The notes under the pieces are model-generated. The model was given only the letters and a program-made list of their open reading frames with translations. It had not been told where the DNA came from and ran no database searches. Below, piece after piece: positions 3,614 to 56,975 of a DNA stretch of 57,291 nucleotides; the stretch's first letter is position 1, and each line of letters opens with the position of its first letter. This DNA is from a virus, in the IMG/VR virus record IMGVR_UViG_3300008954_000065, positions 1 through 57,291 of that record; one strand, written 5' to 3'. The position numbers and the translations under genes are program-made.

Positions 3614-3728
3614 TTGCCGTACAGGATTGCCGTGCAGGATTGCCTCACAGGGTGCCTCACAGGAAAACCCCTCACAGGTTGCCGTACAGGATCACGATAA
3701 AAAACAGCGGCATAGGGTGCCGCACAGG
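3614..3728 (+). repeat. cluster of seven 12-bp repeats, consensus TTGCCGTACAGG
   Basis: Copies start at 3614, 3627, 3640, 3652, 3667, 3679 and 3717. The first and sixth are identical (TTGCCGTACAGG); the others vary at the central three bases or the first bases, while the 3' CAGG is invariant. Spacings of 13, 13, 12, 15, 12 and 38 do not keep a reading frame, which argues against coding. Further copies of the same word occur upstream of gene starts and inside genes across the rightward regions. Confidence 0.75.
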
Positions 3729-3742
3729 ATTGGAGCTAAAAA

Positions 3743-3997
3743 ATGAAAAACATTGAAGCCATGCCAGTTGAGTCCGTTCCGGTTTCGTCACTGTCGAAAT
3801 TGCCGGACGGCGTTTTGTGCGCCGAGGTGCCATGCACTGATTATTCTGCGCTGCAAAAGTTGCCGCACAGTCTGGAGGTATGCTGCCACTGGATGCGGGC
3901 GCGGGTCATCGTCACTCGCACGGGTTGGGATTCGGATCGGTGCGTTGCCTACTACAAAGACAACATCTTACACGCGCTCAGCGTAAGGGGAGCATGA
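3743..3997 (+). CDS. hypothetical protein, 84 aa
   Basis: The start ATG follows GGATTGGAGCTAAAAA, a good ribosome site that directly abuts the last 12-bp repeat. The protein contains three to four Cys and a central HxxxCC-like patch (LEVCCHWM), but no clear metal motif. One further copy of the repeat word (TTGCCGCACAG, about 3861) lies in its coding sequence. Function unknown. Confidence 0.6.
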   Translation: MKNIEAMPVESVPVSSLSKLPDGVLCAEVPCTDYSALQKLPHSLEVCCHWMRARVIVTRTGWDSDRCVAYYKDNILHALSVRGA

Positions 3998-3998
3998 T

Positions 3999-4061
3999 AT
4001 GGAATTCACAACGATACGAGACGCGTCATTATTGCCGCAATCAACAAAAAAGAAAGGGTAG
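3999..4061 (+). CDS. possible leader peptide, 20 aa
   Basis: A 20-codon frame starts with ATG at 3999 behind AAGGGGAG, a stronger ribosome site than most genes here, and ends with TAG inside the ribosome site of the next gene (AAAGGGTAG). A TTGCCGCAA element lies inside it. This arrangement would allow translational coupling or attenuation of the gene at 4066. It may be fortuitous. Confidence 0.3.
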   Translation: MEFTTIRDASLLPQSTKKKG

Positions 4062-4065
4062 AACA

Positions 4066-4572
4066 ATGAAAAACCAAGAATTTGAGCTAACTACGTTCGA
4101 TCAAGACGCGACACCAGGATCCGATTTTCCAGATATTGCCGTACATAACCCGATCACGGGCAATTACATGTGGTTAGGCAGTAAACACGGCTTTATTGAT
4201 TTGTTCCACATTTGGAGCCCGGATCAAATGGTTGAGTGCATCATGCCCGACGATGAATTGTTGCGGGCTGAAATGTGGTTCAAAGGCGAATGCTCACATT
4301 TGATTGATGATTTTTCTATCGATTATGAGCGTTTATGTGTTGACATGGGATTGATCGATGGGCTGAACGATCTTGATCTTGATCAATGGTGTCAATCTCG
4401 TGAGACAGATCAAGCAATCGCAAAAGCGATTTTTGAATTGGCTACTGTTCCGAGTGAGGCCCAAGAAATTTGGGAATCGCCTTATTCGCTTGAGGAAAAA
4501 ATCGTCTCAAGAGCATTTGAGCTAACCGAAGAAAACAAATTGCAATGGGGCCAAGAATCCTACGAGCGATAA
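4066..4572 (+). CDS. hypothetical acidic protein, 168 aa
   Basis: I do not recognise this protein. It is strongly acidic, rich in Asp and Glu with repeated DLDLD-type runs in the middle, like small DNA-mimic or host-inhibitor proteins, though that is only an analogy. An in-frame ATG at 3994 exists, but AAAGGG eight bases before 4066 favours the shorter form. The DNA remains rich in GATC (the run at 4368-4386 has three in 19 bases). It lies second in a series of genes each preceded by a TTGCCG element. Confidence 0.6.
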   Translation: MKNQEFELTTFDQDATPGSDFPDIAVHNPITGNYMWLGSKHGFIDLFHIWSPDQMVECIMPDDELLRAEMWFKGECSHLIDDFSIDYERLCVDMGLIDGLNDLDLDQWCQSRETDQAIAKAIFELATVPSEAQEIWESPYSLEEKIVSRAFELTEENKLQWGQESYER

Positions 4573-4587
4573 AAAAAACGCGGTATT

Positions 4588-4612
4588 ATTGCCGCATGGA
4601 AGGGATAAGACA
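4588..4612 (+). promoter_or_regulatory. start-associated element ATTGCCGCATGGA
   Basis: ATTGCCGCATGGA (4588-4600) sits 12 bases before the ATG at 4613 and supplies its ribosome site. An almost identical leader occurs at 4841-4861 before the gene at 4862. Both continue TAAGACA then ATGGAAAA. Related words lie at 4031-4040, 5128-5138 and 5408-5416 before other starts. Confidence 0.55.
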
Positions 4613-4822
4613 ATGGAAAATTACAGATGTGAAAGATGTTGCAAGCCTTGCGACACGGGGATTGCCTGCGATCCTTGCGAGATAAAGACCATAAAATCAT
4701 TTCTTGAAAATGAATCTTGGCTTAAATATAGGGGTTCAGTTTTTTGCGATTATGAAAAAAAGACTCATAGGGAAATCTTTGAGTCCGAGCTGAAAATGCT
4801 TGAGCTATCAAGCCAACCGTGA
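4613..4822 (+). CDS. zinc-finger-like protein, 69 aa
   Basis: The first 26 residues hold CERCCKPC and CDPC, a set of Cys residues that fits a small zinc ribbon (CxxC-x(9-12)-CxxC) with two extra Cys. The remaining 40 residues are helical and charged. An upstream in-frame frame exists from 4589, but the leader element with GGAAGGGATAAGACA favours ATG 4613. Probably a small nucleic-acid or protein-binding factor; target unknown. Confidence 0.55.
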   Translation: MENYRCERCCKPCDTGIACDPCEIKTIKSFLENESWLKYRGSVFCDYEKKTHREIFESELKMLELSSQP

Positions 4823-4840
4823 CCGCTCAAAAAACCAGAT

Positions 4841-4861
4841 ATTGCCGCATGGAGTAAGACA
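4841..4861 (+). promoter_or_regulatory. start-associated element, second copy
   Basis: ATTGCCGCATGGAGTAAGAC immediately precedes the ATG at 4862. Compared with the copy at 4588 it lacks four bases between GGA and TAAGACA, so the two leaders seem to be duplicates that have since diverged slightly. Confidence 0.55.
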
Positions 4862-5113
4862 ATGGAAAACAAACGAAAAAAACTGAAGGCGCAAACACTT
4901 GAACGATATACTGCCGTACAGGCATGGAACGCCGTGCTTCTCCGGTCTGAGTCTTATCGCTATGAATGCGATGGGATTTACATAGACTGCGGCGAGCACT
5001 TTGAATTCTATGCCGGGCACCACGATTATGACCGTGCTGTCCGCGCGCTGATCGGCATGGGCGCAGTGGATTTCGACGGGAACAATTCTAGAAGCCTCCT
5101 TCATCTGATGTGA
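4862..5113 (+). CDS. hypothetical protein, 83 aa
   Basis: The start is fixed by GGAG within the TTGCCG leader. The protein has a basic N-terminal 15 residues, then a mixed alpha/beta region with HFEFYAGHHDYDRAVRALIGMG near the C-terminus cut short of any known motif. An exact GCCGTACAGG word (about 4913-4922) falls in frame and encodes AVQ. Unknown function. Confidence 0.55.
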   Translation: MENKRKKLKAQTLERYTAVQAWNAVLLRSESYRYECDGIYIDCGEHFEFYAGHHDYDRAVRALIGMGAVDFDGNNSRSLLHLM

Positions 5114-5144
5114 GATCCCACAATAAGTTGCCGTACAGCCAGAA

Positions 5145-5369
5145 GTGCGATATGTCTTGGTTATGAAGCATCAGGGACCATGGCTAGAATACCGCACTGC
5201 TGGCATCGTTTGGAAGCGGCACAATTTCCTCCAAGCTCCAGGAACACAACTGGACGTGCCAAAACTAATTGAGCTTTTAGAGCATCTGCAAGCGGTAGAA
5301 GTCCGATTCGGAGAGATACATCTTCACCGGAACGATCTTCAATCGCCTTGGGAATCTGGCCAGCGTTGA
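5145..5369 (+). CDS. hypothetical protein, 74 aa
   Basis: The likely start is GTG 5145 or the in-frame ATG at 5163; neither has a strong ribosome site, though TTGCCGTACAG (5128-5138) lies just upstream as for its neighbours. The C-terminal half has a leucine-rich helix (PKLIELLEHLQAVEVRFG). No family is recognised and the start is uncertain. Confidence 0.45.
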   Translation: MRYVLVMKHQGPWLEYRTAGIVWKRHNFLQAPGTQLDVPKLIELLEHLQAVEVRFGEIHLHRNDLQSPWESGQR

Positions 5370-5425
5370 CTGAATTCAATATATTTTCCGTACACAAAAA
5401 AACCTGCATTGCCAGGCGCGCTTTC

Positions 5426-6259
5426 ATGCGCGCGATGGATGCGGTACGGTTCACGTTCCTGACCGGGTTCGTCATGCCTCCCGGTCTGGTCTGGGGTCAG
5501 CGGGAAATAAATATGGTGCTGAGAATGGTCGCCGATGAGTATGCCGCAGTTTACCATGATGGCCTATTGGTAGGATACGGCCAGCACTGGCACGGTGCAT
5601 TTACCCTGCACCGCATCTTTAAGCTGTGTAGGGTGGATCACTCCTATGAGATTCACTGCACATCCAAACCAGAATCCCTTGCATTGCTGCAAACATGCAC
5701 CACCGGGCATCTCACCGCACTGGAAAAGAAAACAAAGATTTCCGTGCAGATGCGCCAATATCCGAGCAATGAAAACCTGGTCAGTATGCTGGACACCTAC
5801 GAATATTTCCGCACATGGCACCGGGCAAATGCCCGCTGCTGGTGGATTTTCGACAGATATGTTGCCGTACAGGAATCGATTGACACTTTCAAGGAAATGG
5901 TGATTGCGCGAAACCAGGAACTTATTGATGCAGAGATGTCCAAAACTACGCGAGAAGAAAAAGAAACAGTACGCTTTCATGCAGTGAAATCAATAACGCG
6001 TCGAAGGCCATCAATCCTTCTTGATTTCGTAAGCATGTGCGACAACAACCCTTTAGACAAGACGTCTACAGAGTTTGAACACATCTTGAAATCAAATGCG
6101 ATCATCATTTCAGATGAAAACGAAAGACGAAAACGCATAAAGCACCGCGCATCCAAACGCGCGAAGAAATTGCGCAAAAGATCTCAGGACATTGGGGGCA
6201 AATCCAAGAGAAATATTCTTTCCCTGCTGAATGATTATTTTGGTGAACGTCCACTTTGA
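5426..6259 (+). CDS. hypothetical protein, about 277 aa
   Basis: The frame is open from a TTG at 5348; ATGs at 5426, 5435 and 5513 are possible starts. I prefer 5426 because it follows an ATTGCCAGG element like its neighbours, but GCGGGAAA before 5513 is a better ribosome site. The protein has a mixed N-terminal half with several Trp, His and Cys and a very basic, helical C-terminal 70 residues (RRKRIKHRASKRAKKLRKR), suited to binding nucleic acid. An exact GCCGTACAGG (about 5863) is in frame as AVQ. No domain is recognised. Confidence 0.55.
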   Translation: MRAMDAVRFTFLTGFVMPPGLVWGQREINMVLRMVADEYAAVYHDGLLVGYGQHWHGAFTLHRIFKLCRVDHSYEIHCTSKPESLALLQTCTTGHLTALEKKTKISVQMRQYPSNENLVSMLDTYEYFRTWHRANARCWWIFDRYVAVQESIDTFKEMVIARNQELIDAEMSKTTREEKETVRFHAVKSITRRRPSILLDFVSMCDNNPLDKTSTEFEHILKSNAIIISDENERRKRIKHRASKRAKKLRKRSQDIGGKSKRNILSLLNDYFGERPL

Positions 6260-6296
6260 TCTTGCAAGTGGGCTCCTACGACGCAAACGTATTTTG

Positions 6297-6497
6297 ATGA
6301 CGAACAATAAAGAAACGATCTGCCCCGACTGCAACAATGATGGCTGGCACTTTTCAACCGTTGTCAGGCATGTCAAGAGAAGACAATCCGACGGACAACA
6401 GGCAATCAGATGCGAAGTCGATAAGATACGCGTCACCTGCGAATGCCCCCAGGGCGATCTGTGGATGGAGACACACGGGCTAAGGTTCATCGGCTAA
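6297..6497 (+). CDS. small CxxC protein, 66 aa
   Basis: The frame is open from 6231; I choose ATG 6297 because it falls just before the conserved-looking part, although neither start has a clear ribosome site. CPDC near the N-terminus and CEVDKIRVTCEC near the C-terminus suggest a zinc ribbon, a common layout in phage accessory proteins. Its 3' end overlaps by four bases the 3' end of the convergent helicase-loader gene. Confidence 0.5.
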   Translation: MTNNKETICPDCNNDGWHFSTVVRHVKRRQSDGQQAIRCEVDKIRVTCECPQGDLWMETHGLRFIG

Positions 6498-7243
6498 CGC
6501 CTTGACTTGCCCTTCATTGTGACCCATCCTGAACCACACTTATCAACATATGCCCTTGTTCTATCGAGGATATCGTTCCCATATATTTTCGTGAACTCAT
6601 CTTTGCTCGATCTTGTGGTGATAATGGTAGGCAATCCTTTGTCATGGCGCTCGCACAAAATAGTGCTAACCACCCGGATACAGTTGGGGCTATCACCAGC
6701 GGTAGTTTGCGGAGCCACTTCATCTAGCACAACAACCCCCCGAATAGTCATCAAATCCCTGAGCAGTTCCCCGGATTCCCCAAAAGCAGTGATACCCATC
6801 CATTCAGACCGTGCCATGAAGCGACCATTGGACCTCCAAGCCGCATACGAAGCCGCTACCGTCTTACCCACCCCATTGGTCCCAGAAAGCACCAGAACGC
6901 CTCTCACGCGCGCTGAGACATACTTATCCATTGACTCCCCAAGTTTACCTCCAAGCTTGTTGTCTTGAGACTCCGGCGTAAGCCGGAGGGTTTTCACAAA
7001 ACTGTCAGACACGGCAATCTTCCTTATCCTTGCTTCAAAATCAGTTGACCTTTGCGAATCCGTCTCATTGGATTCCACAAAGTCCTTGATTGCCTTGTCA
7101 TTTTCAACAGCACACATCATGCAAAACGCCTCTCCGCGCTCAACCAAGAACGAAAAGTGCTCAGGTATCTTCGCAGTGCATGACGAACAGGGAACATCTT
7201 TGACCAGCCCGTAGCCGTTCTTTTCCAATGTGTTATTATTCAA
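6494..7243 (-). CDS. DnaC-like helicase loader (AAA+ ATPase), 249 aa
   Basis: A zinc-finger-like N-terminus (Cys 19, 22, 41, 44) precedes an AAA+ core with Walker A GTNGVGKT (121-128), Walker B VVVLDE (170-175) and sensor-1 TT (about 209-211), followed by Arg residues in position for an arginine finger. The size and layout match DnaC/IstB-type loaders that place the host DnaB helicase on phage origins. The start is TTG at 7243 behind GAGAGG; this is needed to include the Cys pairs. It overlaps the stop of the upstream replication ORF by 8 bases, so both are one leftward operon starting near 8.33 kb. Confidence 0.85.
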   Translation of the reverse strand: MNNNTLEKNGYGLVKDVPCSSCTAKIPEHFSFLVERGEAFCMMCAVENDKAIKDFVESNETDSQRSTDFEARIRKIAVSDSFVKTLRLTPESQDNKLGGKLGESMDKYVSARVRGVLVLSGTNGVGKTVAASYAAWRSNGRFMARSEWMGITAFGESGELLRDLMTIRGVVVLDEVAPQTTAGDSPNCIRVVSTILCERHDKGLPTIITTRSSKDEFTKIYGNDILDRTRAYVDKCGSGWVTMKGKSRR

Positions 7244-7829
7244 AGGTTATATCCTCTCTGCCTGCTATCCAATCCGCTTCAGTTGCATATCCTTCATCGC
7301 GCCATGGCCCGTAGCCACCAGGCGCAGATGGGTTATCAGGCTCGCTGAAAAGAGCTACCCATTTGTCAAAATGTTTTGCGATGTGGGTGAAGGACCAGAA
7401 CCTGGGCCGGTCTTCCCAGGGGTCTTTTTTTATTCCGTGGATTGCTTGGATGATTTGGACCAGGGTGCGCCCCTCATCCAGCATTTCTTCAATCGCTTCT
7501 CTAGTTTTTTTGCTTTTGAATGAAACAGAAGAACCCAACACAGACCGATGACATTTGACCGCGACTGCCACCGCATCATTGACCGTTATGTCCGGGCATA
7601 GATCTGGATTGAGCAGCACGGATTTCCAATCCACGCTGCACGGTTCAGCCTCAGTTTCTTTTTGCTTTAGTTTTTTATTGTAATTAATAGAACTAATATA
7701 ATTAGTAGTTACACCATGGTTGTATATAACTAATTGTAACTCAGTAGTGCTATAGAATTTATAGTTAGCAGATTGACTTTTTTCTGTCAAATCATTTTTA
7801 AGTATCTGTTTTTGCTTTTCTTTTTCCAT
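7236..7829 (-). CDS. replisome organiser, C-terminal-domain-like, 197 aa
   Basis: The C-terminal 60 residues (WxxxxFTHIAKHFDKWVALF with surrounding Trp and Phe) resemble the end of phage replisome organisers that hand the origin to the helicase loader. The N-terminal 60 residues are Lys/Asn/Tyr-rich and look like a linker. The gene has its own strong ribosome site (GGAGGG, spacing 5). It is in the same reading frame as the ORF ending at 7980, and the frame between them runs through four iterons and is broken by only two stops. It may therefore be the second half of a lambda-O-like initiator. The family assignment rests on pattern recognition. Confidence 0.55.
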   Translation of the reverse strand: MEKEKQKQILKNDLTEKSQSANYKFYSTTELQLVIYNHGVTTNYISSINYNKKLKQKETEAEPCSVDWKSVLLNPDLCPDITVNDAVAVAVKCHRSVLGSSVSFKSKKTREAIEEMLDEGRTLVQIIQAIHGIKKDPWEDRPRFWSFTHIAKHFDKWVALFSEPDNPSAPGGYGPWRDEGYATEADWIAGREDITFE

Positions 7830-7878
7830 CTGTTCCCTCCGTTTTTCGGTTTTTTCCCATTTCTTTTTGTTCTTTTGC

Positions 7879-7992
7879 GTAAGGCCACGCCTTACGCTTT
7901 CGTTTTTTTGTAAGACTACCTCTTACGCTTTTGGCAACTTTGTAAGACTACACCTTACGCATTTTGCTTTTCTGTAAGACTACACCTTACGC
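7879..7992 (-). repeat. four 19-bp iterons, candidate replication origin
   Basis: On the minus strand the word GCGTAAGGTGTAGTCTTAC occurs twice exactly (7974-7992 and 7942-7960), with variants at 7910-7928 and 7879-7897. Each copy is an imperfect dyad with GTAAG and CTTAC arms. Start-to-start distances are 32, 32 and 31 bases, that is three helical turns, so a bound protein would line up on one DNA face. Spacers are A-rich on the minus strand. Position between two replication ORFs and upstream of the helicase loader mirrors the lambda O iteron region. Confidence 0.8.
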
Positions 7993-8255
7993 TTCTTCGC
8001 CCGGTATGCGCGCATATATTTCGCTGGGTGACTATAAGATGCGGGCACCCTCCCATCCGCCAGTCCTGCTTGCTCCAGCATTTCTTGTGAGATCCATTCC
8101 GGCATGTGGACCTCTGCTTCAGCAGCGGCTGAAGACCAAATGGTGATCGCTACTCCCAGACATTCGTGATGCGTGTGTCCGGTGATTTCAGCCAGCGCTA
8201 AAACGCGGGGGTCCGATATGGCATCCAGGGACAACCTTAACTGTTTCAGTGACAT
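7980..8255 (-). CDS. replisome organiser, N-terminal-domain-like, 91 aa
   Basis: The segment from about residue 14 to 62 (DPRVLALAEITGHTHHECLG then IWSSAAAEA) looks like the winged-helix N-terminal domain of phage replication proteins, where a short helix pair is followed by a LW..A helix. The C-terminus is basic (RAYRAKKRKV) and its TAG stop lies within the first iteron. Ribosome site GGGAGCGAG is well placed. It is first in the leftward operon and in frame with the ORF at 7236-7829. It could be a separate origin-binding subunit. The family call is tentative. Confidence 0.5.
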   Translation of the reverse strand: MSLKQLRLSLDAISDPRVLALAEITGHTHHECLGVAITIWSSAAAEAEVHMPEWISQEMLEQAGLADGRVPASYSHPAKYMRAYRAKKRKV

Positions 8256-8286
8256 AACTCGCTCCCTATTTTTTTTGTTCTACGGT

Positions 8287-8325
8287 GTTGATCTTTTTGC
8301 CCCGCGACATTAGTGTGAGATCAAC
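8287..8325. promoter_or_regulatory. operator-like inverted repeat GTTGATCT / AGATCAAC
   Basis: GTTGATCT (8287-8294) and AGATCAAC (8318-8325) are perfect 8-bp inverted arms separated by 23 bases. They lie in the divergent control region between the leftward replication operon and the rightward operon starting at 8374, just downstream of the leftward promoter at 8334-8362. The right arm with its flanks repeats a word found at 3382-3407. Confidence 0.5.
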
Positions 8326-8333
8326 GGATCAAA

Positions 8334-8362
8334 AAAATACAAACAAACATCAAAAAAGTCAA
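8334..8362 (-). promoter_or_regulatory. sigma70-like leftward promoter for the replication operon
   Basis: Read on the minus strand, TTGACT (8357-8362, 5 of 6) is followed after 17 bases by TATTTT (8334-8339, 4 of 6). Transcription would start near 8327, so the inverted-repeat arm at 8318-8325 would cover the first transcribed bases, a position suited to repression. It drives the genes from 8255 down to 6494. Confidence 0.55.
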
Positions 8363-8373
8363 AGGGAGATCAC

Positions 8374-8811
8374 ATGAAACAGCCAAACATTATCGCAACC
8401 GATTTTTCGGACATCAGCTCAGTCCAGCTATGCGGGCAGGATGCGTCCTTAGTATGGGATGCAGACACGGCATCCGGCAAGCTTACATTGACCGGTTCTG
8501 AGCCATTTGATGCCGGAACCCAACACCTTCTGCTTAACTTCTTCTTTGACAAAAGCGGCGATGACCTATGCGACCTGAAGAAGATGATAGCCCGCGAGTC
8601 CGATGGCTTCTCCTCCCTGCTACTTCAGCATGAGTCTGGCATCAGCCTTCCCGCGAAAATGGAATCCTGCTTGATGATGCCTGGACCAGAAAAGATCCGC
8701 TATCGGATCGAATACTTCGTGTGCATTCTTCTAGATGGCGAAGAGATTGATTCTGAAGACCACATGCTTGAGATTCTGCATCCACGCAGCTTGGAGGAGA
8801 TGTATGGATAA
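8374..8811 (+). CDS. hypothetical protein, 145 aa
   Basis: I do not recognise the family. It is acidic, predicted mixed alpha/beta, without membrane segments. Ribosome site GGGAGATCAC precedes ATG. It is the first gene of the rightward early operon, and its distal end overlaps the next start by 8 bases. Position alone suggests an early accessory function. Confidence 0.65.
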   Translation: MKQPNIIATDFSDISSVQLCGQDASLVWDADTASGKLTLTGSEPFDAGTQHLLLNFFFDKSGDDLCDLKKMIARESDGFSSLLLQHESGISLPAKMESCLMMPGPEKIRYRIEYFVCILLDGEEIDSEDHMLEILHPRSLEEMYG

Positions 8812-8971
8812 TGAGTTTCAGGAAAATCTCAGCAATGTTTTCACCGGTCTGCTCGGATTGATGAAAACAAGCGACAAGAAAACAAAAAAAGAACTGGAAA
8901 AAATGGCCTTATTCTTCATTCAAATGGAGGTTGAGGCGTACAAAAAAACGGAGGAAGAAAATGGGAATTAA
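8804..8971 (+). CDS. hypothetical helical protein, 55 aa
   Basis: ATG 8804 follows GGAGGAG, a strong site; an upstream in-frame extension lacks one. The 55 residues are predicted helical and charged (KTSDKKTKKELEKMALFF), likely a small coiled-coil or protein-binding peptide. Overlaps both neighbours. Confidence 0.5.
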   Translation: MDNEFQENLSNVFTGLLGLMKTSDKKTKKELEKMALFFIQMEVEAYKKTEEENGN

Positions 8972-9263
8972 GATGCACAACAATGGGGTTTTAGATTACC
9001 TCGATTCGGAAATGCCAGAAGGACCAACCTACGATGTGGAACTCGACGGTCACCTGCTCGACTTCATGGATGACGTTTCAGATATCCTATCCAAAAACGT
9101 AGACATCTTGCATCGGGCCAGAAGAGAGTTGATGCGCAAAGGGCCTGAGAATGCGCTATCGGTCCTAGTTGTTGATGGTCAAGTGGAGATCCTACGCGAA
9201 ATGAAACACCAGATAAACATGGTGGGAGAAAGGAAGCGACACGATGCAGCATCCAAATTTTGA
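8961..9263 (+). CDS. hypothetical protein, 100 aa
   Basis: ATG 8961 follows GGAGGAAG at good spacing and overlaps the previous gene by 11 bases. The protein is acidic in its first half (a run of Asp and Glu around residues 25-45) and helical and basic in its last third. No family is recognised. Confidence 0.6.
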   Translation: MGIKMHNNGVLDYLDSEMPEGPTYDVELDGHLLDFMDDVSDILSKNVDILHRARRELMRKGPENALSVLVVDGQVEILREMKHQINMVGERKRHDAASKF

Positions 9264-9414
9264 GACAGTGAAGACCCGTGCCCATTGCCTGGCGCTCCAA
9301 GCAGCCACGCGGGCACACGGAGACGCTTGGATTGATTTGATTCAGGCGCAATTGAAACTGAAACTAGCGGAAAAGAAACTAGAGAAAATAAAAAAAGAAA
9401 GAAGGACAAGATGA
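9244..9414 (+). CDS. hypothetical helical protein, 56 aa
   Basis: A frame of 56 residues starts at ATG 9244 behind AAAGGAAGCG and ends as ATGA with the next gene. It is nearly all helix, ending in the very basic KLAEKKLEKIKKERRTR. It fills the gap between two clear genes in the same operon and keeps the overlap pattern, which supports it as real. Confidence 0.5.
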   Translation: MQHPNFETVKTRAHCLALQAATRAHGDAWIDLIQAQLKLKLAEKKLEKIKKERRTR

Positions 9415-9707
9415 CCAAACCAGAAACCCACAAAATCCACAAGTTCCACGGTGATACACATAGCTTCGAGGAATCGCTGGATATTTTCAGTGACACCATT
9501 TTTCTGCTTGATGTGCTCGGACGCATCATGGAAGCAAATGAAAATGATCCAGACTCAGTGTCCTGCTACATACCCACATGGCCACAGCTAATGTTGCTCC
9601 ACGAAACCTATGCGCGCGGACAAGCGCTCGGTTTCAATGAAGGACTAATGGAAGCTTCCACCAAAAAGAAAACCGCCAAGAAGAAGAAGAAAGGTGGTGC
9701 GAAATGA
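9411..9707 (+). CDS. hypothetical protein with Lys-rich tail, 98 aa
   Basis: The start overlaps the previous stop. The body is helical with an acidic segment; the last 20 residues are nearly all Lys with a final GGAK, as in small DNA-binding or histone-tail-like extensions. The same 15-base end (GGTGGTGCGAAATGA, 9693-9707) recurs at the end of the next gene. Function unknown. Confidence 0.6.
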   Translation: MTKPETHKIHKFHGDTHSFEESLDIFSDTIFLLDVLGRIMEANENDPDSVSCYIPTWPQLMLLHETYARGQALGFNEGLMEASTKKKTAKKKKKGGAK

Positions 9708-9940
9708 AGAACATCAAAGACATCGCGGTCCCCACTGTGGATATCGATCTTTTGAGGGTCCAAAGGGATGCGCTTCTGGAGATGATAGACATCGCCCCAC
9801 TTCTCAATGATGGGTGCGTGGGCGCAGCGCTGGAAATCATGGATTCTGTGACAAACCGAAACGGGGTCGATTTCATCCAGGGGTTGATCGAAATGCTGGA
9901 CGCAATGCTGGACATTGCGGAGCTGGGTGGTGCGAAATGA
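9693..9940 (+). repeat. 15-bp gene-junction repeat (two copies)
   Basis: GGTGGTGCGAAATGA occurs at 9693-9707 and 9926-9940. Each copy ends one gene (coding GGAK and stop) and contains the ATG of the next. The pair may come from duplication of a junction, and the second copy marks the start of the disrupted gene at 9937. Confidence 0.6.
9704..9940 (+). CDS. hypothetical protein, 78 aa
   Basis: The ATG lies in the 15-bp junction repeat, with GGTGGTG as ribosome site. The protein is acidic and apolar with Leu/Ile/Met heptad-like spacing, ending LGGAK like its neighbour, and may form a helical bundle. No family is recognised. Confidence 0.6.
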   Translation: MKNIKDIAVPTVDIDLLRVQRDALLEMIDIAPLLNDGCVGAALEIMDSVTNRNGVDFIQGLIEMLDAMLDIAELGGAK

Positions 9941-10060
9941 CATTCCATAAGTGAGTGCGATGATGAAAAAATCATGTGGGAACTTGCAAACCTAAATGGA
10001 CAAGAGTGGGAAGAAACAAAGGCTTACGCCAAATCTATTGTTGTCGGCAACGGATGCTGA
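9937..10060 (+). pseudogene. small gene apparently broken by a 1-base frameshift, about 40 aa
   Basis: After the second junction repeat, ATG 9937 reads only five codons before TGA. The next frame is open from there to TGA 10058-10060 and encodes a sensible acidic helical stretch (SECDDEKIMWELANLNG and onward). Removing one base of TTCC near 9945 would join them into a 40-residue protein. Either a real disruption, a sequencing error, or only the 28-residue frame from ATG 9974 is translated. Confidence 0.35.
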
Positions 10061-10087
10061 AAAACAGAAAGAAGAAAGGAAGAACAG

Positions 10088-11011: not shown

Positions 11012-11034
11012 AGGCAGAAAAGAAGGAGGGAAAA

Positions 11035-11691: not shown

Positions 11692-11878
11692 GGAAATGTT
11701 TAGCGGGTTGGGTGTAAAGATCGATACGATAGAGTTTAAGGAATACGTGTCCAAATACGCGATTCAAAACGTACCCCCCGGTGGACTCATAACCGCATGG
11801 GTTGGAGAAGACGATGGAACAGAAGAAGTCATGGCAACTTGCCAACAAAATCGTAAGGGTAATCGAACAAGACCTTGA
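11681..11878 (+). CDS. hypothetical protein, 65 aa
   Basis: ATG 11681 follows GGAGACGACG within the acidic tail of the annealing-protein gene, overlapping it by 11 bases. The protein is mixed, ending in a basic RKGNRTRP tail, and overlaps the next gene for 65 bases. It could be real or a by-product of the overlap; no family is recognised. Confidence 0.4.
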   Translation: MTIEEMFSGLGVKIDTIEFKEYVSKYAIQNVPPGGLITAWVGEDDGTEEVMATCQQNRKGNRTRP

Positions 11879-12068
11879 TCTTGACGAACAAAAAGAGCTT
11901 ATCGTCTTATGGTGGGCCCTGACCTTTCTCCAGATGGAACTCACATCCAGGCTGAAAATGTCAATGGATGAGCAAAGGGAGAACCTGCACCGAGCAATGA
12001 AGCTTGTCTCCAGGGGCCACAACGTAGAAATGCCACCGGAGCCGGAAGATAAATGGGACATACACTGA
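11814..12068 (+). CDS. hypothetical helical protein, 84 aa
   Basis: ATG 11814 is preceded by GGAGAAG at good distance; a TTG four codons upstream is less likely. The sequence is almost entirely helical, amphipathic, with VLWWALTFLQMELTSRLKM in the middle, perhaps buried in a dimer. Overlaps the resolvase start by 16 bases. Unknown function within the recombination operon. Confidence 0.55.
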   Translation: MEQKKSWQLANKIVRVIEQDLDLDEQKELIVLWWALTFLQMELTSRLKMSMDEQRENLHRAMKLVSRGHNVEMPPEPEDKWDIH

Positions 12069-12613
12069 TCGCCATAGACCCAGGGTCAAAGACCGGATGG
12101 GCCATCTATGAGAACCACCATCTTTTCCTGTCAGGAGAAAAACCCCTAAAGGTTGCCGTACAGGAAATAAAGGAAAACATAGATGGAAAGCGTGTGGATG
12201 CCTTTGCGATTGAGAATATGTACTTTGGGGCTGGTCGGGCAAGCCCGAGCGCCCTCTACAAACTTGGACATAACACGGGATACATTGTTGGGTTGCTTGA
12301 ACCCTACCTGAATAACGACACCGTGATGTGGAACCCTCAGCCTGGAGAATGGCGAAAGGTTTTAGAGTTTGCTCGCGGGAGCAGGGAAGAAATGGCCGCC
12401 CTGGCATTAGAAAAAGCTGAAACCATTGCCGCACAGAAACTGGAGGGCCCAAGAGGTGGCAAACACATAGACCGAGCAATGGCCATCTGCATAGGAAGGG
12501 CCATGACTTTAATACTGAAAGGGGACTTTAAAAATGAAGAGCCGACAAAAAGAAAAACTAAAACTAGAAAGAAGCAAAAAAAGACCAGCGTACCTAAAGC
12601 GGTCAAGAGTTGA
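12053..12613 (+). CDS. RuvC-like Holliday junction resolvase, 186 aa
   Basis: The RNase H-like core has the acidic residues of RuvC resolvases: D9 in IAIDPGSKTGWA, E54 in FAIENMYF and D140 in HIDRAMAICIG. The protein would cut branched DNA and clear junctions before packaging. A very basic 30-residue tail (about 155-186) probably binds DNA; its coding sequence is overlapped for 80 bases by the next gene. In-frame GCCGTACAGG and a TTGCCGCACAG word lie within the gene. Confidence 0.85.
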   Translation: MGHTLIAIDPGSKTGWAIYENHHLFLSGEKPLKVAVQEIKENIDGKRVDAFAIENMYFGAGRASPSALYKLGHNTGYIVGLLEPYLNNDTVMWNPQPGEWRKVLEFARGSREEMAALALEKAETIAAQKLEGPRGGKHIDRAMAICIGRAMTLILKGDFKNEEPTKRKTKTRKKQKKTSVPKAVKS

Positions 12614-13031
12614 GCGAGAGTTCATAGAGGTCATAACAGACTTTATCGAGTTTCAGGATGCACCAATCGAGCATCAAGAGGAGGTAAAAAAAAGAACAAA
12701 CGAAAAGAAAAACGGCAGGCATGTAATACCAGTCTCAACAGTGAGAACCATGCTTAGAAAAATGGACAAGTTTGGGCACATCAAATGGCTCGAAGATATA
12801 TTTAAAGAAAGGATGCAAGCGGAACTTGGGGATTTCACCCCAGGAAAACCTGGTCCGACTCCACCGTCGCCAGGAGACATGAAAACATATTCGATACTAA
12901 CAGACACCAAAGGTAGGTCTTTTGCAAGAATACCTACGTGTACGCTTGGACTGGATGACGGGGAAAAGATTCTCGTTGAGTTTAGGTCTTCGCGTATAAT
13001 CATCACACCACAAAAGGAGATAGAGTCATGA
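12534..13031 (+). CDS. hypothetical protein with AbrB-like C-terminus, 165 aa
   Basis: ATG 12534 follows AAGGGGACTTTAAAA, which lies inside the resolvase gene. The N-terminal 60 residues are very basic and helical; a Pro/Gly linker follows near 105-115; the last 40 residues (LGLDDGEKILVEF, then RIIITP) resemble the swapped-hairpin SpoVT/AbrB domain of transcription regulators. That would make it a DNA-binding protein, but the resemblance is short. Its stop overlaps the ssb start by 4 bases. Confidence 0.5.
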   Translation: MKSRQKEKLKLERSKKRPAYLKRSRVEREFIEVITDFIEFQDAPIEHQEEVKKRTNEKKNGRHVIPVSTVRTMLRKMDKFGHIKWLEDIFKERMQAELGDFTPGKPGPTPPSPGDMKTYSILTDTKGRSFARIPTCTLGLDDGEKILVEFRSSRIIITPQKEIES

Positions 13032-13420
13032 ATACATTTTTCTTAAGCGGTCGCCTAGGGGCTGACCCTGAAGTTAAGTTCACCAAGGGTGGTCTCGCCA
13101 TCACAACCATCAGCATTGCCAATAATCGACGCGTCAAAAAGGACGATGCGTGGGAGGATAAGACAGACTGGTTTAGGATAAAGTTCTTCGGAAAGAAGGG
13201 CGAGGTGGTGGGAGAGCATTTCTCTAAAGGGAAATACATCAACACATGGGGCCGCATTGAGCCATTCTCATACGAAAAGGATGACGGACAGAAGGTGTAC
13301 GGACATGACTTCTGCGCCAACGATTTTGACTTTGTTGACAAGAAGGGAGAGGGGGGCGGCGAAGCTGCACCCAAGGCTCGCTCAACATCTTCCGCCGATG
13401 CGGATGAACTTCCATTTTAG
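13028..13420 (+). CDS. ssb: single-stranded DNA-binding protein, 130 aa
   Basis: The first 105 residues match the bacterial SSB OB-fold (FLSGRLGADPEVKFT, ISIANNRR, DWFRIKFFGKKGEVV, KGKYINTWGRIE). A Gly/Ala/Ser linker is followed by the acidic tip DADELPF, the hook that recruits replication and repair partners. Length 130 is slightly shorter than typical chromosomal SSB (about 175). It protects ssDNA made by the exonuclease and helicase encoded nearby. Confidence 0.92.
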   Translation: MNTFFLSGRLGADPEVKFTKGGLAITTISIANNRRVKKDDAWEDKTDWFRIKFFGKKGEVVGEHFSKGKYINTWGRIEPFSYEKDDGQKVYGHDFCANDFDFVDKKGEGGGEAAPKARSTSSADADELPF

Positions 13421-13427
13421 GTGAACC

Positions 13428-13862
13428 ATGAGCAGCGTTAAGATAAAAATAAAGCCGCTCAGAGAAGACTGTAAGCTACCCGAGCGTAAGACCTCGGGGG
13501 CTTCCTGTCTGGACCTGTATGCTTGCATGGATGTAACCATGTATCCGAATGACACAAGAATCATAAGAACAGGGTTCGCCCTGGAGCTGCCTCCCGGTGT
13601 CGAAGGACAGATAAGGCCCCGCTCAGGGTTGGCTTCCAGGGGTATTGCCGCACACTTCGGAACGATTGACTCAGACTATCGCGGCGAAGTCAAAGTTATC
13701 CTCATAAATATGAGCAAGAAGAAACACGAGATTAGATCCGGGGACAGGATTGCGCAGCTTGCAATAAACTCCACCGTGACAGACAAGCTGGTGTTCCTTG
13801 TGACCGAGTGCTTAAGCGAAACGAAGAGGGGAGAAAAAGGGTTTGGCTCAACAGGAGACTAA
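13428..13862 (+). CDS. dut: dUTP diphosphatase, 144 aa
   Basis: All five motifs of trimeric dUTPases are visible: SCLDLYA, RPRSGLA, GTIDSDYRGE, GDRIAQLAI, and the C-terminal RGEKGFGSTG that closes over the substrate. It hydrolyses dUTP to dUMP and pyrophosphate, keeping uracil out of phage DNA and feeding dTMP synthesis. Length is standard. It starts eight bases after ssb and is transcribed with it. Confidence 0.93.
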   Translation: MSSVKIKIKPLREDCKLPERKTSGASCLDLYACMDVTMYPNDTRIIRTGFALELPPGVEGQIRPRSGLASRGIAAHFGTIDSDYRGEVKVILINMSKKKHEIRSGDRIAQLAINSTVTDKLVFLVTECLSETKRGEKGFGSTGD

Positions 13863-13882
13863 TACGGAAGATTGGCGACGGG

Positions 13883-14083
13883 ATGGACGACTACGAGGCT
13901 ATCAAAAAACTGATAATAGAGACCCTGTACTCAAGGGAGCTGTCAAAAACTCCAGAGGAAGAGAGAGATAACTGCGCATCAGTAATAAGGTCCATGAACC
14001 TGGAAGAGATAAAGAAAACAATAAGGGTGCGGAAAAATGCAGGAGAGACTGTTCCTAGGGATTGTGACAAAGATAAAATATAA
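13883..14083 (+). CDS. hypothetical helical protein, 66 aa
   Basis: I choose ATG 13883; an in-frame upstream extension would overlap the dUTPase gene. The protein is charged and helical (EAIKKLIIETLYSREL, then EEIKKTIRVRK). It overlaps the next gene by 47 bases. No family recognised. Confidence 0.45.
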   Translation: MDDYEAIKKLIIETLYSRELSKTPEEERDNCASVIRSMNLEEIKKTIRVRKNAGETVPRDCDKDKI

Positions 14084-14348
14084 TATAGACGGAGGCACCA
14101 TGGGCACCCGCATGGTGCTGTGGGTAAAGCCGGTATACGGAAGTGCAAAGAACAACCTGGTCGCGCCAGGAGGCAAGACTGCCCCGTTTCCCGTAGAGAT
14201 AAACGAGAGGCTTACCATCAAACACATAAAGAATATAGAAGTGGGAGACCTGCTGGAGATAAAAAGCCTTTACAAGATAAAGCCGAACAAGGACAGCATT
14301 GTCATTTTTGAAATAAACAAAAAGAGGTTACCTTCACATGAAAAATAA
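14037..14348 (+). CDS. hypothetical protein, 103 aa
   Basis: The ATG at 14037 follows AAGGGTGCGG. The protein has alternating short strands and a single basic C-terminus, consistent with a small beta-barrel or OB-like fold, but no motif allows a call. It overlaps the genes on either side, like the other members of this early operon. Confidence 0.55.
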   Translation: MQERLFLGIVTKIKYNIDGGTMGTRMVLWVKPVYGSAKNNLVAPGGKTAPFPVEINERLTIKHIKNIEVGDLLEIKSLYKIKPNKDSIVIFEINKKRLPSHEK

Positions 14349-14520
14349 AAAATGGCAGCACGACGGAGCATTCTGTCAAGAGCTTATAAAAAAAGAATAC
14401 GCAAAAAGAAACAAGAAGGGCGGGCTTGACCCGGTTGTGTCAGATGGACTTATAATCTATATGTGGGAAATGTTTAAAGCGGGAATCATGCACGAAAAAA
14501 ACATGGGCGAAAAAAGATGA
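14338..14520 (+). CDS. hypothetical protein, 60 aa
   Basis: A short basic protein (11 Lys in 60 residues) starting at ATG 14338 after AGAGG; it overlaps the gene before by 11 bases and ends with ATGA into the next. The middle (VVSDGLIIYMWEMFKAGI) is a likely buried helix. Function unknown. Confidence 0.5.
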   Translation: MKNKKWQHDGAFCQELIKKEYAKRNKKGGLDPVVSDGLIIYMWEMFKAGIMHEKNMGEKR

Positions 14521-14834
14521 ATACCAGGGCATTTCTTGGCGCAATATTTAACCGTGTGCAAAGAGACAGGGAGATAAAGTTCTCCGGCGTCAGGGTTGAG
14601 TGTGGCTCCTGGTTTTCTGCTTACCAGTACGTGTATGAGACAGACCCGCTAACAGGCAAAGACGTGACAGACTTCTCAACAGAGATGAAATCGATGGAAG
14701 ATGTTGAATGCAACGAGGACGGTGAAGGAAAAGTTGTATTCACAATAAAGAAAGAGATAGTGAATAGGATCAAAGGGGATCAAAATGGAAAAATGGAATC
14801 TGGAACAGAAAAAGCTCGCGAGGGCACTGCTTAG
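14517..14834 (+). CDS. hypothetical protein, 105 aa
   Basis: Coupled to the preceding gene by ATGA. The N-terminal half is beta-rich, the middle acidic and the C-terminus basic. No family is recognised. The last 50 bases are shared with the next gene. Confidence 0.55.
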   Translation: MNTRAFLGAIFNRVQRDREIKFSGVRVECGSWFSAYQYVYETDPLTGKDVTDFSTEMKSMEDVECNEDGEGKVVFTIKKEIVNRIKGDQNGKMESGTEKAREGTA

Positions 14835-15132
14835 TTATCCTGACTTGGTAAAAAAGGCCGTGTTAGCTCTCGATGTAATGCCCAAGACATTGAACGAGGA
14901 GCTTCGTACATTTATCGCCCAACTGGCAATCCTGGTAGACAAATACCCGGATGACCTGGGCAAGGCCCTGATGCAGACACCTGTGAAGCGCAACGGTGTG
15001 CTGGCCTACATATTCTATGAGGTACACGGAACAAAGAAGAGAGAAGATTTCAATGTCCAGATAGACAGATGGGATTGCGATCAAGTTGTGAACGATTTCC
15101 TAAAGAAGCGCTTTGTGAAAAAGGAAAAGTGA
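14785..15132 (+). CDS. helical protein resembling a DnaB-binding (DnaG C-terminal-like) domain, 115 aa
   Basis: The segment from residue 5 to 60 (EQKKLARALLSYPDLVKKAV, then LRTFIAQLAILVDKYPD) has the pattern of the helical bundle shared by the DnaG primase C-terminus and the DnaB N-terminus, where ARxLLxYP opens the domain. If correct it could bind DnaB or primase and modulate the host replisome. The resemblance is partial. Start supported by AAGGGGATCAAA. Confidence 0.4.
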   Translation: MEKWNLEQKKLARALLSYPDLVKKAVLALDVMPKTLNEELRTFIAQLAILVDKYPDDLGKALMQTPVKRNGVLAYIFYEVHGTKKREDFNVQIDRWDCDQVVNDFLKKRFVKKEK

Positions 15133-15188
15133 TGAATCACAAAAAGAAAGAAGACACCATTCATTAGTGGTGGAGGTAAGGGGTACAT

Positions 15189-16007
15189 ATGGACAAGGGA
15201 AAGACGCTCGCCAAGGAAGAGATTTACGGTGACCTCGACGCGCTGTTTGAGAAGGCGACGACGAGAACCTGGGAAAACAGTACGGTCTGCCCGGAAACGC
15301 GAAAGTGGAGTATAAGAAACAGCAAGGAACATTTCCTAATAGATATGGAGAGAAAGATAGGAGGCATGCGCCGCGAGTTGGCACTCGAAGCCATTAAGAG
15401 CCGTGGGTATAAAATGTTTTCCAGCGAAGATTCTTTGAGTTCATGGCTTGAGGAAAACATAAGCAGCAATTTTCATGTCATACCGGAGGTTTGGGGAAAG
15501 CACACGCCGACTGGGAAAAACATAAGAATAGATTTCATACTGTACCCCAGGGAGCACCTGGTCAAGGCTGGTTTTATAGAGAAACCGTTTGGCGTCGAAG
15601 TGAAACACTTTGACCTTATGAACACCAAGGGGCAGGTAAAGAAAATAAGAAAGACATTGAGGCAGTCTCAAACATATCAAGAATCTATATACTCCAGGTC
15701 TGGAAGAAAATTTTCTACCGCGTTTACATTAATTTTCTCAAACTTATCGTTTATCCGCGAAAGAAGATTTGCGTTTGACTGTAACAGCGAACTTAAACCG
15801 GCCTACAAGGCAATGATGTGCTCGTTAAGGTATTCGATGGTGGGCGAGTTGATCATACCGGGCTACGTGCCGGACACAGACGGTTGGAAAATTTCTTTTT
15901 CTGGCCAGGTCTGGGCATCGTGTGGCGATGGCCGCTCCCCTGACGGGGCCTCCTTTAGCCCTGTAAACGATATCTTTAAAGCGCCCCTGAAGGTGGGGTC
16001 ACTGTAA
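15189..16007 (+). CDS. PD-(D/E)XK nuclease, 272 aa
   Basis: A nuclease core is visible: E100 (IPE), D115 in NIRIDFILYP, E137-V-K139 in FGVEVKHFD, then a Q motif around 160-165 (RQSQTYQ). These match the metal and catalytic residues of PD-(D/E)XK enzymes such as VRR-NUC or Cas4/RecB-type nucleases. The start has GGAGGTAAGGGG upstream. It is immediately followed by a UvrD-like helicase, an arrangement like AddAB/RecB-type nuclease-helicase pairs, so the two may process DNA ends together. The exact subfamily is not determined. Confidence 0.7.
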   Translation: MDKGKTLAKEEIYGDLDALFEKATTRTWENSTVCPETRKWSIRNSKEHFLIDMERKIGGMRRELALEAIKSRGYKMFSSEDSLSSWLEENISSNFHVIPEVWGKHTPTGKNIRIDFILYPREHLVKAGFIEKPFGVEVKHFDLMNTKGQVKKIRKTLRQSQTYQESIYSRSGRKFSTAFTLIFSNLSFIRERRFAFDCNSELKPAYKAMMCSLRYSMVGELIIPGYVPDTDGWKISFSGQVWASCGDGRSPDGASFSPVNDIFKAPLKVGSL

Positions 16008-16139
16008 GCATAAAAATAAAAGGGAACGGCAGTGATAAAAAGAAAGAAGCATGACCAACTGATTTTCCCTGGGCTCCACGATGGCCCAAAGGGAAGACAT
16101 TTCAAGAAAATAAACACCATCGCAAGGGAGGATAAAGAG

Positions 16140-17897
16140 ATGGCCAGCAATGGATTTATAGCAACAGACCAGCATGAGGCGATATTTAAATTTATCATGA
16201 ATGGTTTAGGAAATTGCCAGGTATCAGCGCTAGCTGGGTCGGGGAAGACATCGACCATGATACAGCTATGCCTTTTGCTTGAGAAGCATAGGATGGATAT
16301 ACGAAAAATCCTTATGTGTGCCTTCAACAAAGCGATTATTGATGAAATTTCCGCAAAAGCAAAAAGACTTGGACTTTCTGTGGACTGCCTGACGACTCAT
16401 GCCGTTGGAAATCAATCCGTAAGGCCTTTTCTTTTCAGCATTGGGGCAGGCAAGGTGTCTGTTTCTGAACCTGGGCATCCGTACACTGGCATAATCAGAG
16501 ACAAGTTCAAGGATGATAAAGAGAGAAAAGACCTGGCTCTTGAAATACTTGGATACCTTTTTAACGGGTGTGCATGGTTATCCATAGAGGACTTGATGAA
16601 CGCTGACCGCGATCAGGTCAAGCCCTTGCTGGATCACCACGGAATATATGTGCCCCCCACCGTAGAGATACCAAACCAGGACGCCAGCGAGAAAGACCTC
16701 GTTGAGTATCTGCTTGGGCTGATAACCACAAGGGTCAAGCTGCTGGCAGAGGGGAAACATATAGACCCCGAACAGCCGCACATGACGTTCAATGAAATGA
16801 TCTCGCTGCCACTTATCTTTAACACGAAGCTAAATAAATATGACCTTGTTATTATCGACGAGGCCCAGGATCTAAACAAAACAAAGCAGAGTCTTATAAA
16901 AAAGTTTGCGGACGATGGCGCTAGGATTATAACGGTGGGGGATCCTCACCAGGCGATATATGGGTTCACTGGGGCGGACCACAGGTCAATGGATACCATG
17001 AAAGAGATGCTCAATATAGAGAAGGAGCTTCCCCTTACCGTGTCGTACCGCATACCAAAAAGAGTATGTTGGTTGGCCCAGAGAGACGTGCCGGAAATAG
17101 AATGTCTGCCATCTGCGGAGGAGGGGGAGGTAATCCTCGATTACGACAAGGGATCTGACACCGTGCATGGCATCCCTATACTGGAATCCGAGCAGGACAG
17201 GTATCTGGGCAGAGTTTTACAGGATTTCGATGGAGAGGCGCTGATACTGTGTCGGTACAATGCGCCCCTTTTCAAAATTGCTTCTTTGCTTATCAGGAGG
17301 GACGTTGGCTTTACCTTTAGGGGGAAATCAGGGTTTGCACGAAAGTATAAAAACTTCATGGAGAGGGTATACGAGCAAGACCTTCCTATCTGCACCGAAT
17401 ACCTGCAGGGAAAGAACGGACTTCTGCACCTCATGAAGGAAAGAAAGAACAACGAATTGGCGAGAATCGAGAAAAAGAAAGCTAAGGATAGCAACTACAA
17501 TTGCGGAGAGGCAACATCCAAGATTAGGGACATGGTTGCGACATGTGAAGCCATAGTCTCTAATGCGCTTGAAGATGGGTACGAAAAAGTCACTGACGTT
17601 ATAGGGCAATACAAAAAGACCAAGAGGGTTGGAGGCACCATAGAAAAGTTCATGTATATGAAGACACAAGACCCTGACAGGCAGGGGGCCAGCCGCATAG
17701 AGTTGTCGAGCATCCATCAGGCAAAGGGAACAGAGGCAGACAACGTAATAATCTGGGGATGGAGCATGATGCCATCGGTTCATGCGAAGAGCGAGTGGGA
17801 GTTGATCCAAGAGCGAAACCTAAGATATGTTGCGGTGACCAGGGCAAAGAAAAAACTTCTTCTGGTGGATATAGAAAGGGATGAGGATGATGACTAA
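16140..17897 (+). CDS. UvrD/Rep-like superfamily 1 DNA helicase, 585 aa
   Basis: SF1A motifs appear in order: motif I AGSGKT (32-37), motif Ia near CAFNK, motif II IIDEAQD (about 237-243), motif III GDPHQAIYGF (about 267-276), motif IV region SYRIPKR, motif V IHQAKGTEAD and motif VI YVAVTRAKK (about 563-571). It is an ATP-driven 3'-5' translocase by family. ATG 16140 with AAGGGAGG upstream is chosen; an in-frame GTG at 16032 would add 36 residues but has a poor site. Neighbouring the nuclease and recombination genes, it likely serves end processing or replication restart. Confidence 0.9.
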   Translation: MASNGFIATDQHEAIFKFIMNGLGNCQVSALAGSGKTSTMIQLCLLLEKHRMDIRKILMCAFNKAIIDEISAKAKRLGLSVDCLTTHAVGNQSVRPFLFSIGAGKVSVSEPGHPYTGIIRDKFKDDKERKDLALEILGYLFNGCAWLSIEDLMNADRDQVKPLLDHHGIYVPPTVEIPNQDASEKDLVEYLLGLITTRVKLLAEGKHIDPEQPHMTFNEMISLPLIFNTKLNKYDLVIIDEAQDLNKTKQSLIKKFADDGARIITVGDPHQAIYGFTGADHRSMDTMKEMLNIEKELPLTVSYRIPKRVCWLAQRDVPEIECLPSAEEGEVILDYDKGSDTVHGIPILESEQDRYLGRVLQDFDGEALILCRYNAPLFKIASLLIRRDVGFTFRGKSGFARKYKNFMERVYEQDLPICTEYLQGKNGLLHLMKERKNNELARIEKKKAKDSNYNCGEATSKIRDMVATCEAIVSNALEDGYEKVTDVIGQYKKTKRVGGTIEKFMYMKTQDPDRQGASRIELSSIHQAKGTEADNVIIWGWSMMPSVHAKSEWELIQERNLRYVAVTRAKKKLLLVDIERDEDDD

Positions 17898-18228
17898 AAC
17901 AAAGAGCGATTATGATTACTGGGCGGACTACAAAAAAGAAGTCCAGGAAGGCATCAAAAAAATGATCGATGAAAGCGATGGCCGGGAGGTTGGGCCTGAT
18001 GAGCAGTTAATGCTCCAGGGCTATACCGAGTGGAAACTGGATACGGATACGGTCCAATCAGGGCTGCGGATTCCAATCTTTATGCTGCGTCAACTTCATG
18101 AAATGCGACCCTGGCTGATGCAAGAACCGGAGCTTTACGGAAGGCCACCAACGAACGCCGAGATGATTCGTGTGGCCCTTGCCGTGGGGGTTCTACACCT
18201 AAAAAGAAGAATGAAGGAGGTGACCTAA
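17881..18228 (+). CDS. hypothetical protein, 115 aa
   Basis: The gene overlaps the helicase end by 17 bases and offers ATGs at 17881, 17887 and 17890; the ribosome site GAAAGGG suits the first. It is helical, acidic at its N-terminus, and ends with a segment (PTNAEMIRVALAVGVLHLKRRM) that could be a ribbon-helix-helix or small HTH, unproven. It is the last rightward early gene, converging on the lysis gene. Confidence 0.55.
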   Translation: MRMMTKTKSDYDYWADYKKEVQEGIKKMIDESDGREVGPDEQLMLQGYTEWKLDTDTVQSGLRIPIFMLRQLHEMRPWLMQEPELYGRPPTNAEMIRVALAVGVLHLKRRMKEVT

Positions 18229-18257
18229 CTAGGCAAAACATCTGAACCACATACGTG

Positions 18258-18845
18258 CTAAAATCTGTCGTCACTATTCACGTTCTGTACGGCAGTGGAT
18301 GCCCAGGATCGGACTTCCGCAATCGGATAGTTTGGCCCTGGGCATTGTTTTGGTTTTCGGTTTCGCATAGCTAAGATCTCGTCATGACCGTAGACCCCAC
18401 GGATGTCAGGAAAGTCTAGCCATAGGTCTCGGCAGAGATGCTTCGTGCTTAAGATTTGACTAGCCGTCGGACTCGAACGACGAAAATCCCCAAAGTTACC
18501 AACCCCAATGGAAGTAGAATTAACTCCTGCACAGTGGGCACCTTTACACGCTGCGTCAAGGAACTGGTAAACCTTCCCCTTCCGGTCCACGATATAGTGG
18601 TAGGGGACGTATGCTCGGCTCTTATAGTTCTCCGGCACACCATACTTCCTCCAGTCCCGAATCGCATCCAGGCGGGCCTCAAGGCTTCCAATGGTCACCG
18701 TGGCAACACCCTCTGGGTCTTCCGTGAAAAACTCATGCACGGAATCCACCGTGTATCCAATTTTGATCCGGTGGACAACAATGCTTGAGGTTATTTTTCT
18801 TATTGGGCGAGGAATATCTTCGGGTATCCGCTCGACCACTTTCAT
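18258..18845 (-). CDS. endolysin, N-acetylmuramoyl-L-alanine amidase (Amidase_2), 195 aa
   Basis: The Amidase_2/PGRP zinc site is visible: H25 in SIVVHRIK, H104 in AHCAGVNSTSIGVGNFG, H154 in GHDEI and C168 in KQCPG, with K166 two residues before the Cys as in T7-type enzymes. It cleaves the bond between MurNAc and L-Ala to open the host wall. There is no signal peptide, so a holin or other exit is needed. The start ATG 18845 overlaps the upstream stop (ATGA). A GCCGTACAG word lies in frame near the 3' end on the coding strand. It is the last gene of the late leftward block. Confidence 0.87.
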   Translation of the reverse strand: MKVVERIPEDIPRPIRKITSSIVVHRIKIGYTVDSVHEFFTEDPEGVATVTIGSLEARLDAIRDWRKYGVPENYKSRAYVPYHYIVDRKGKVYQFLDAACKGAHCAGVNSTSIGVGNFGDFRRSSPTASQILSTKHLCRDLWLDFPDIRGVYGHDEILAMRNRKPKQCPGPNYPIAEVRSWASTAVQNVNSDDRF

Positions 18846-56756: not shown

Positions 56757-56757
56757 A

Positions 56758-56964: not shown

Positions 56965-56975
56965 GTATTCACCCA

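Follow-up and report, generated by a model that had tools for sequence, protein, structure and literature searches.

The early region of this phage genome raises a simple question: why does a short, oriented word, with the consensus TTGCCGYACAGG, recur in a tandem array, at gene starts and in the interiors of early genes? The window, the whole stretch of DNA analysed, corresponds to an entire IMG/VR virus record, 57,291 bases long. Its gene products include a terminase, a portal protein, a capsid protein and an amidase, together with RecT-like, RuvC-like and DnaC-like loader proteins. A whole-phage nucleotide search of INPHARED returns no match, with the left 25 kb lacking close matches, and host inference through the helicase, capsid, terminase and YccJ-like proteins pinpoints no host. 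Two relatives are central to the comparison: G004, which is 93-96% identical to the window across most of the early region, and G007, whose terminase is 67% identical to that of the window. Because the G004 alignment spans both window ends (1-182 and 56179-57275), the record is probably a nearly complete, circularly permuted genome.

The word combines two conserved blocks, TGCC and CAGG, with a variable centre between them. Exact copies of GCCGTACAGG lie at 3616, 3681, 4913, 5864 and 12155, all on the plus strand, and GCCGTACAG brings two further sites, at 5130 on the plus strand and at 18285 on the minus strand. The initial annotation had reported exact copies near 4913, 5863 and 12155, additional ones near 5130 and, on the minus strand, near 18284, and near matches at 3861, 4136, 12424 and 13642; all of these are borne out, the near matches at 3860, 4136, 12426 and 13645. 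Among copies outside the array the best core is TTGCCGYACA(G), and the final GG is retained by only three dispersed copies. Copies occur in the array before gene 3743, in the leaders of consecutive small genes and in gene interiors.

The array (3613..3728, plus strand) fills part of the non-coding stretch ahead of gene 3743 and consists of seven TGCCKYRCAGG-type units, which start at 3613, 3626, 3639, 3651, 3666, 3678 and 3716 with spacings of 13, 13, 12, 15, 12 and 38. The earlier count of seven clustered copies at 3614-3728 therefore holds for units, but only two of them are exact 12-mers; the others read TTGCCGTGCAGG, TTGCCTCACAGG, GTGCCTCACAGG, CCCCTCACAGG and GTGCCGCACAGG. In G004 the array persists but is shorter by a single 13-bp unit, and several of its units have changed while staying within the consensus. 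A search near the array identifies no convincing promoter. Directly to its left lie two 29-bp repeats of the AGCGAAGCGAAACGAAGC type (3440-3497 and 3531-3585), followed by a nearly G+C-only stretch, an arrangement that is similar in G004. Among the matches listed when IMG/VR and GTDB genomes are searched for the tandem-word pattern, G004 alone has a related array; the rest, where inspected, resembled coding repeats or short arrays of an unrelated kind.

Leader copies precede the consecutive small genes 3743, 4066, 4613, 4862 and 5145. In all five, TTGCCG(C/T)A or a variant lies 5-26 nt upstream of the start codon, often followed by a Shine-Dalgarno-like stretch. The shorter form TTGCCGCA occurs at 4032, 4589 and 4842, 12-26 nt ahead of start codons, with the first (4032..4039, plus strand) in the leader of gene 4066 and the last (4842..4849, plus strand) in that of gene 4862. 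An intergenic copy, TTGCCGTACAGC (5128..5139, plus strand), stands before an open reading frame starting at 5145 or 5163. A leader-pattern match in L003 was discarded, since that phage is unrelated and the match is due to chance.

Two of these leaders coincide with the edges of a two-gene cassette (4026-4838) that distinguishes the window from G004 and carries the word at both borders. Homology between the two genomes ends at 4025, just ahead of TTATTGCCGCA and a few bases left of the 4032 copy, and restarts at ATATTGCCGCA (4839), beside the 4842 copy. Gene leaders thus seem, from this alignment, to travel along with accessory early genes. The small early gene at 4066-4572 within the cassette has a C-terminal part that matches YccJ (PF13993, 1.5e-10), and the cassette is missing at the corresponding place in G004. 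Used as bait, gene 4066 finds no relatives.

Seven plus-strand copies lie inside early genes. One of them, TTGCCGCACAGT (3860..3871), is read L-P-H-S in gene 3743-3997 and becomes TTGCCGCACAGC in G004. The others are TTGCCGTACATA (4136..4147; gene 4066-4572, I-A-V-H), CTGCCGTACAGG (4911..4922; gene 4862-5113, T-A-V-Q), exact TTGCCGTACAGG twice (5862..5873 in gene 5426-6259 and 12153..12164 in the RuvC-like gene 12053-12613, both V-A-V-Q), TTGCCGCACAGA (12426..12437; RuvC-like gene, I-A-A-Q) and TTGCCGCACACT (13645..13656; dUTPase-like gene 13428-13862, I-A-A-H). The proposal that copies sit in genes encoding A-V-Q is thus right for 4911, 5862 and 12153, but the copy at 5130 is intergenic and that at 3860 is read L-P-H-S. 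On the minus strand, CTGCCGTACAGA (18284..18295) lies in the leftward amidase gene; it stands alone among leftward genes spanning 35 kb and could have arisen by chance.

The excess of the word is real and far beyond chance or codon usage, as the initial annotation had expected from a rough estimate: the count exceeds shuffled, permuted-word and codon-preserving controls. At one mismatch, GCCGTACAGG has 10 copies versus 2.29 in dinucleotide shuffles, and none of 100 shuffles reaches 10. Since the array defines the word beforehand, copies outside it offer a fair test; on both strands at up to 0, 1 and 2 mismatches there are 2, 4 and 13 of them, whereas 1000 permuted words average 0.005, 0.225 and 4.1. 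TTGCCNNACA outside the array occurs seven times on the plus strand of 3741-18250 (0.22 expected), never on the minus strand of that interval, and never on either strand across the remaining 42.6 kb. Even with the array masked and no word preset, TT.CCG.ACA is the top gapped word besides poly-A-like words (9 versus 0.17).

Codon choice sharpens this picture. TTGCCG[TC]ACA appears six times inside rightward early genes, compared with 0.11 expected under a synonymous-codon shuffle and 0.01 under a codon-order shuffle, and 0 of 300 shuffles reach six. Every A-[V/A]-[Q/H] in the early rightward proteins (6 of 6) is spelled GCC-G[T/C]A-CA, versus 1 of 10 in leftward genes (Fisher p = 0.0009, for a contrast picked after the sites were known), while codon usage predicts this spelling for about 6-9% of such tripeptides. 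The shared reading frame itself is little informative, because the other frames require L-P-[YH]-[RS], present once in the region, or C-R-T, which is absent from it. Neither codon usage nor protein sequence accounts for the word. When RuvC is aligned with its G007 counterpart, a gap of four residues at A-V-Q-E might have meant an inserted word, but the alignment is ambiguous at that point and the idea was dropped.

Related phages retain the word to different degrees. G004 keeps six of the seven comparable dispersed sites (3860, 5128, 5862, 12153, 12426 and 13645); the 4911 site is lost, reading GTCCAGG, and the gene that holds the 4136 copy is absent. Positions are conserved in this relative, but the test is weak in a genome that is so nearly identical anyway: the two differ synonymously at about 11% of codons, so site retention is no evidence of selection, and a comparison of window and G004 for extra conservation at the sites has too little power to reveal purifying selection. 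In G007, the dUTPase homologue lacks the 13645 copy, and a non-coding stretch carries TTGCCGTGCAGG twice; the corresponding stretch of G008 carries TTGCCGTACAGG and TTGCCGTGCAGT. Two further G007 copies, at 2989 and 3007, were not counted, being coding D-G-N repeats of a leftward gene. The G007 early region also repeats a palindrome, TGTAGACGTCTACAT, that differs from the GTAAGACTACACCTTACGC-type palindromes of the window. Among 28 farther terminase relatives there are four exact 10-mers altogether, which is no excess. The description of the word as asymmetric, oriented and dispersed is right for the window phage, where the exact plus-strand copies follow transcription; the broader claim of orientation with transcription does not extend to G007, whose genes on either side of the non-coding copies run leftward, with both copies opposite to them.

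The best explanation, which is offered tentatively and falls somewhat short of probable, is that the word acts in cis as a polar site, specific to this lineage, for a putative trans-acting factor that regulates the rightward early operon. The array ahead of gene 3743 would be the strong multi-site element of this factor, and the single sites at gene starts and within early genes its secondary sites. Once bound, the array would control transcription entry into 3743-6497, while bound downstream sites might block or slow elongation in a polar manner, much like stoperators. We infer both the binding and its effect on transcription, and action most likely at the DNA rather than the RNA level. This leaning comes from sites that are linear and lie inside genes, from the variable centre flanked by two conserved blocks, and from G007, where the sites run against flanking transcription. 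Consistent with a regulator site, the array is kept in G004 while its units vary within the consensus, and the word is also found in non-coding DNA of G007 and G008. Against it, most dispersed copies are in genes, whereas stoperators are mostly intergenic.

Pfam and PHROGs scans of a subset of the open reading frames recognise no repressor, helix-turn-helix protein or integrase, and the word could not be linked to any DNA-binding gene. The protein encoded at 12534-13031, between the RuvC-like and SSB genes, holds a position conserved in G007; its C-terminal stretch looks AbrB-like by eye, with no Pfam or PHROGs match. As a candidate binding factor it was modelled with AlphaFold, and the result is uninformative (pLDDT 47.7).

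The main rival to a DNA-level site is a signal in the rightward early mRNA, acting near ribosome-binding sites in the manner of the Start-Associated Sequences (SAS) of mycobacteriophages, either for a translational regulator or as an aid to initiation. We consider it unlikely, though it draws on several observations. The leader copies lie close before the starts of five consecutive genes, often ahead of a Shine-Dalgarno-like stretch, and the word runs along the early sense strands of the window. Two leaders in the window and two in G004 have the word as the 3' arm of a six-pair hairpin after an A-run. The window examples are AAAAACAGCGGCA-TAGGG-TGCCGCACAGGATTGGAG (3700..3735, plus strand), before gene 3743, and GCGGTA-TTAT-TGCCGC (4573..4609, plus strand), before gene 4613. 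An upstream hairpin arm accompanies 8 of 51 sites in four phages, compared with about 0.6 expected, with several of the eight mutually homologous, and the G007 stem shows a C-G to A-U exchange relative to the window. However, the minus strand of both window hairpins, with their A-tracts, reads as a leftward intrinsic terminator; such terminators, as judged from the sequence, are a simple reason for the window hairpins, but leave the array and the in-gene copies unexplained. RNA folding of the array and two in-gene copies gives z = +0.5, +1.3 and +1.2, the array folding no better than shuffles, and this absence of special structure favours a linear site. A covariance model built from the four leader hairpins confidently finds just its own four members, and an Rfam search yields nothing credible. 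In addition, the in-gene copies are distant from starts, and the non-coding G007 copies are antisense to the flanking genes, which suits a DNA site better than an mRNA signal.

A replication or recombination site, in which the array would be iteron-like or packaging-related and the scattered copies weaker sites, is rather improbable. The direct tandem repeats of 12-15 bp within a long non-coding stretch would suit such a role, as would the word at both cassette borders, TTATTGCCGCA (4025) and ATATTGCCGCA (4839). Yet G004 lacks a word copy at the left breakpoint, so the exchange was not a simple word-to-word crossover, and in-gene copies are unexpected for an origin. A better iteron candidate also exists: palindromic repeats of the GTAAGACTACACCTTACGC type (7877-7995, period 32 bp) lie directly upstream of the leftward replication genes (7236-7829, with the DnaC-like loader at 6494) and are, by position and sequence, candidate origin iterons or an operator. 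Least likely is a word without function, spread through tandem slippage and cassette shuffling with in-gene copies partly by chance. It agrees with the single 13-bp unit by which near relatives differ and with the duplication of leaders together with their cassettes, but slippage does not bring copies into the conserved RuvC and dUTPase genes, where they are normal coding sequence written by codon choice at six seen versus 0.11 expected.

The preferred regulator site can also be set against known systems. CsrA/RsmA sites have an invariant GGA, usually in a hairpin loop. The repeated (A)CAGGA of the array, whose last copy adjoins the ribosome-binding site, resembles the CsrA/CsrB arrangement, but GGA is missing at 3860, 4136, 5128, 12426 and 13645 and in two of the seven array units; the conserved part is instead TTGCCGYACA, with no loop presentation seen, and CsrA sites fit the word poorly. 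Replication iterons are tandem repeats that an initiator binds next to its own gene; here a tandem array is present, at a distance from the replication genes (6494-7829). The initial annotation had likened the word to both stoperators and Chi. A Chi-like host factor is unlikely because no sites occur beyond the rightward early region and the farther phages show no excess; unlike Chi, the word is tied to one operon rather than over-represented genome-wide, as counted in phage genomes. The stoperator-like part of that comparison may hold, as the word is asymmetric, oriented and dispersed in this phage.

SAS and extended SAS of Cluster K mycobacteriophages are 13-bp asymmetric words in many copies and almost a single orientation. 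They are limited to non-structural genes, lie in many cases at gene starts and are uncommon in other phages; about half have an upstream inverted repeat, and they lie 3-7 bp from start codons, at the ribosome-binding position, carrying AGGAG (PMC3203893). The phage word is likewise asymmetric, present in many copies, in one orientation, confined to non-structural genes, found at several gene starts and not common in other phages. It differs in its in-gene copies (4136, 4911, 5862, 12153, 12426 and 13645), its tandem array and its leader copies, which lie farther upstream than SAS, and its consensus is unrelated to the SAS consensus GGGATAGGAGCCC with AGGAG. Cluster A stoperators, such as those of L5, are 13-bp asymmetric sites with many copies per genome, orientation tied to transcription, and conserved blocks with variable middle positions (PMC9283540, PMC6550527). 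The window word shares the asymmetry, the orientation and the variable centre, although the non-coding G007 copies oppose their flanking genes; unlike stoperators, its sites keep to the rightward early region, where a tandem array joins sites that are mostly in genes; its sequence is unrelated, and no repressor is recognised among the proteins scanned.

Filing the word under stoperators or SAS therefore fails, as most copies lie away from gene starts and the proteins scanned include no recognisable repressor. A bolder proposal, which we regard as doubtful, is that the word is so strongly needed that synonymous codon choice writes it into conserved early genes; the uniform spelling of the early-operon tripeptides and the leader array would then form a polar marking system for the early operon, unlike stoperators and SAS in sequence and layout. 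If the regulator site is confirmed, coding sequence itself would bear sites, and a codon-level test of regulation would become possible. Such confirmation would also add a further independent phage case, beside mycobacteriophage stoperators and SAS, of a many-copy oriented word that marks early genes.
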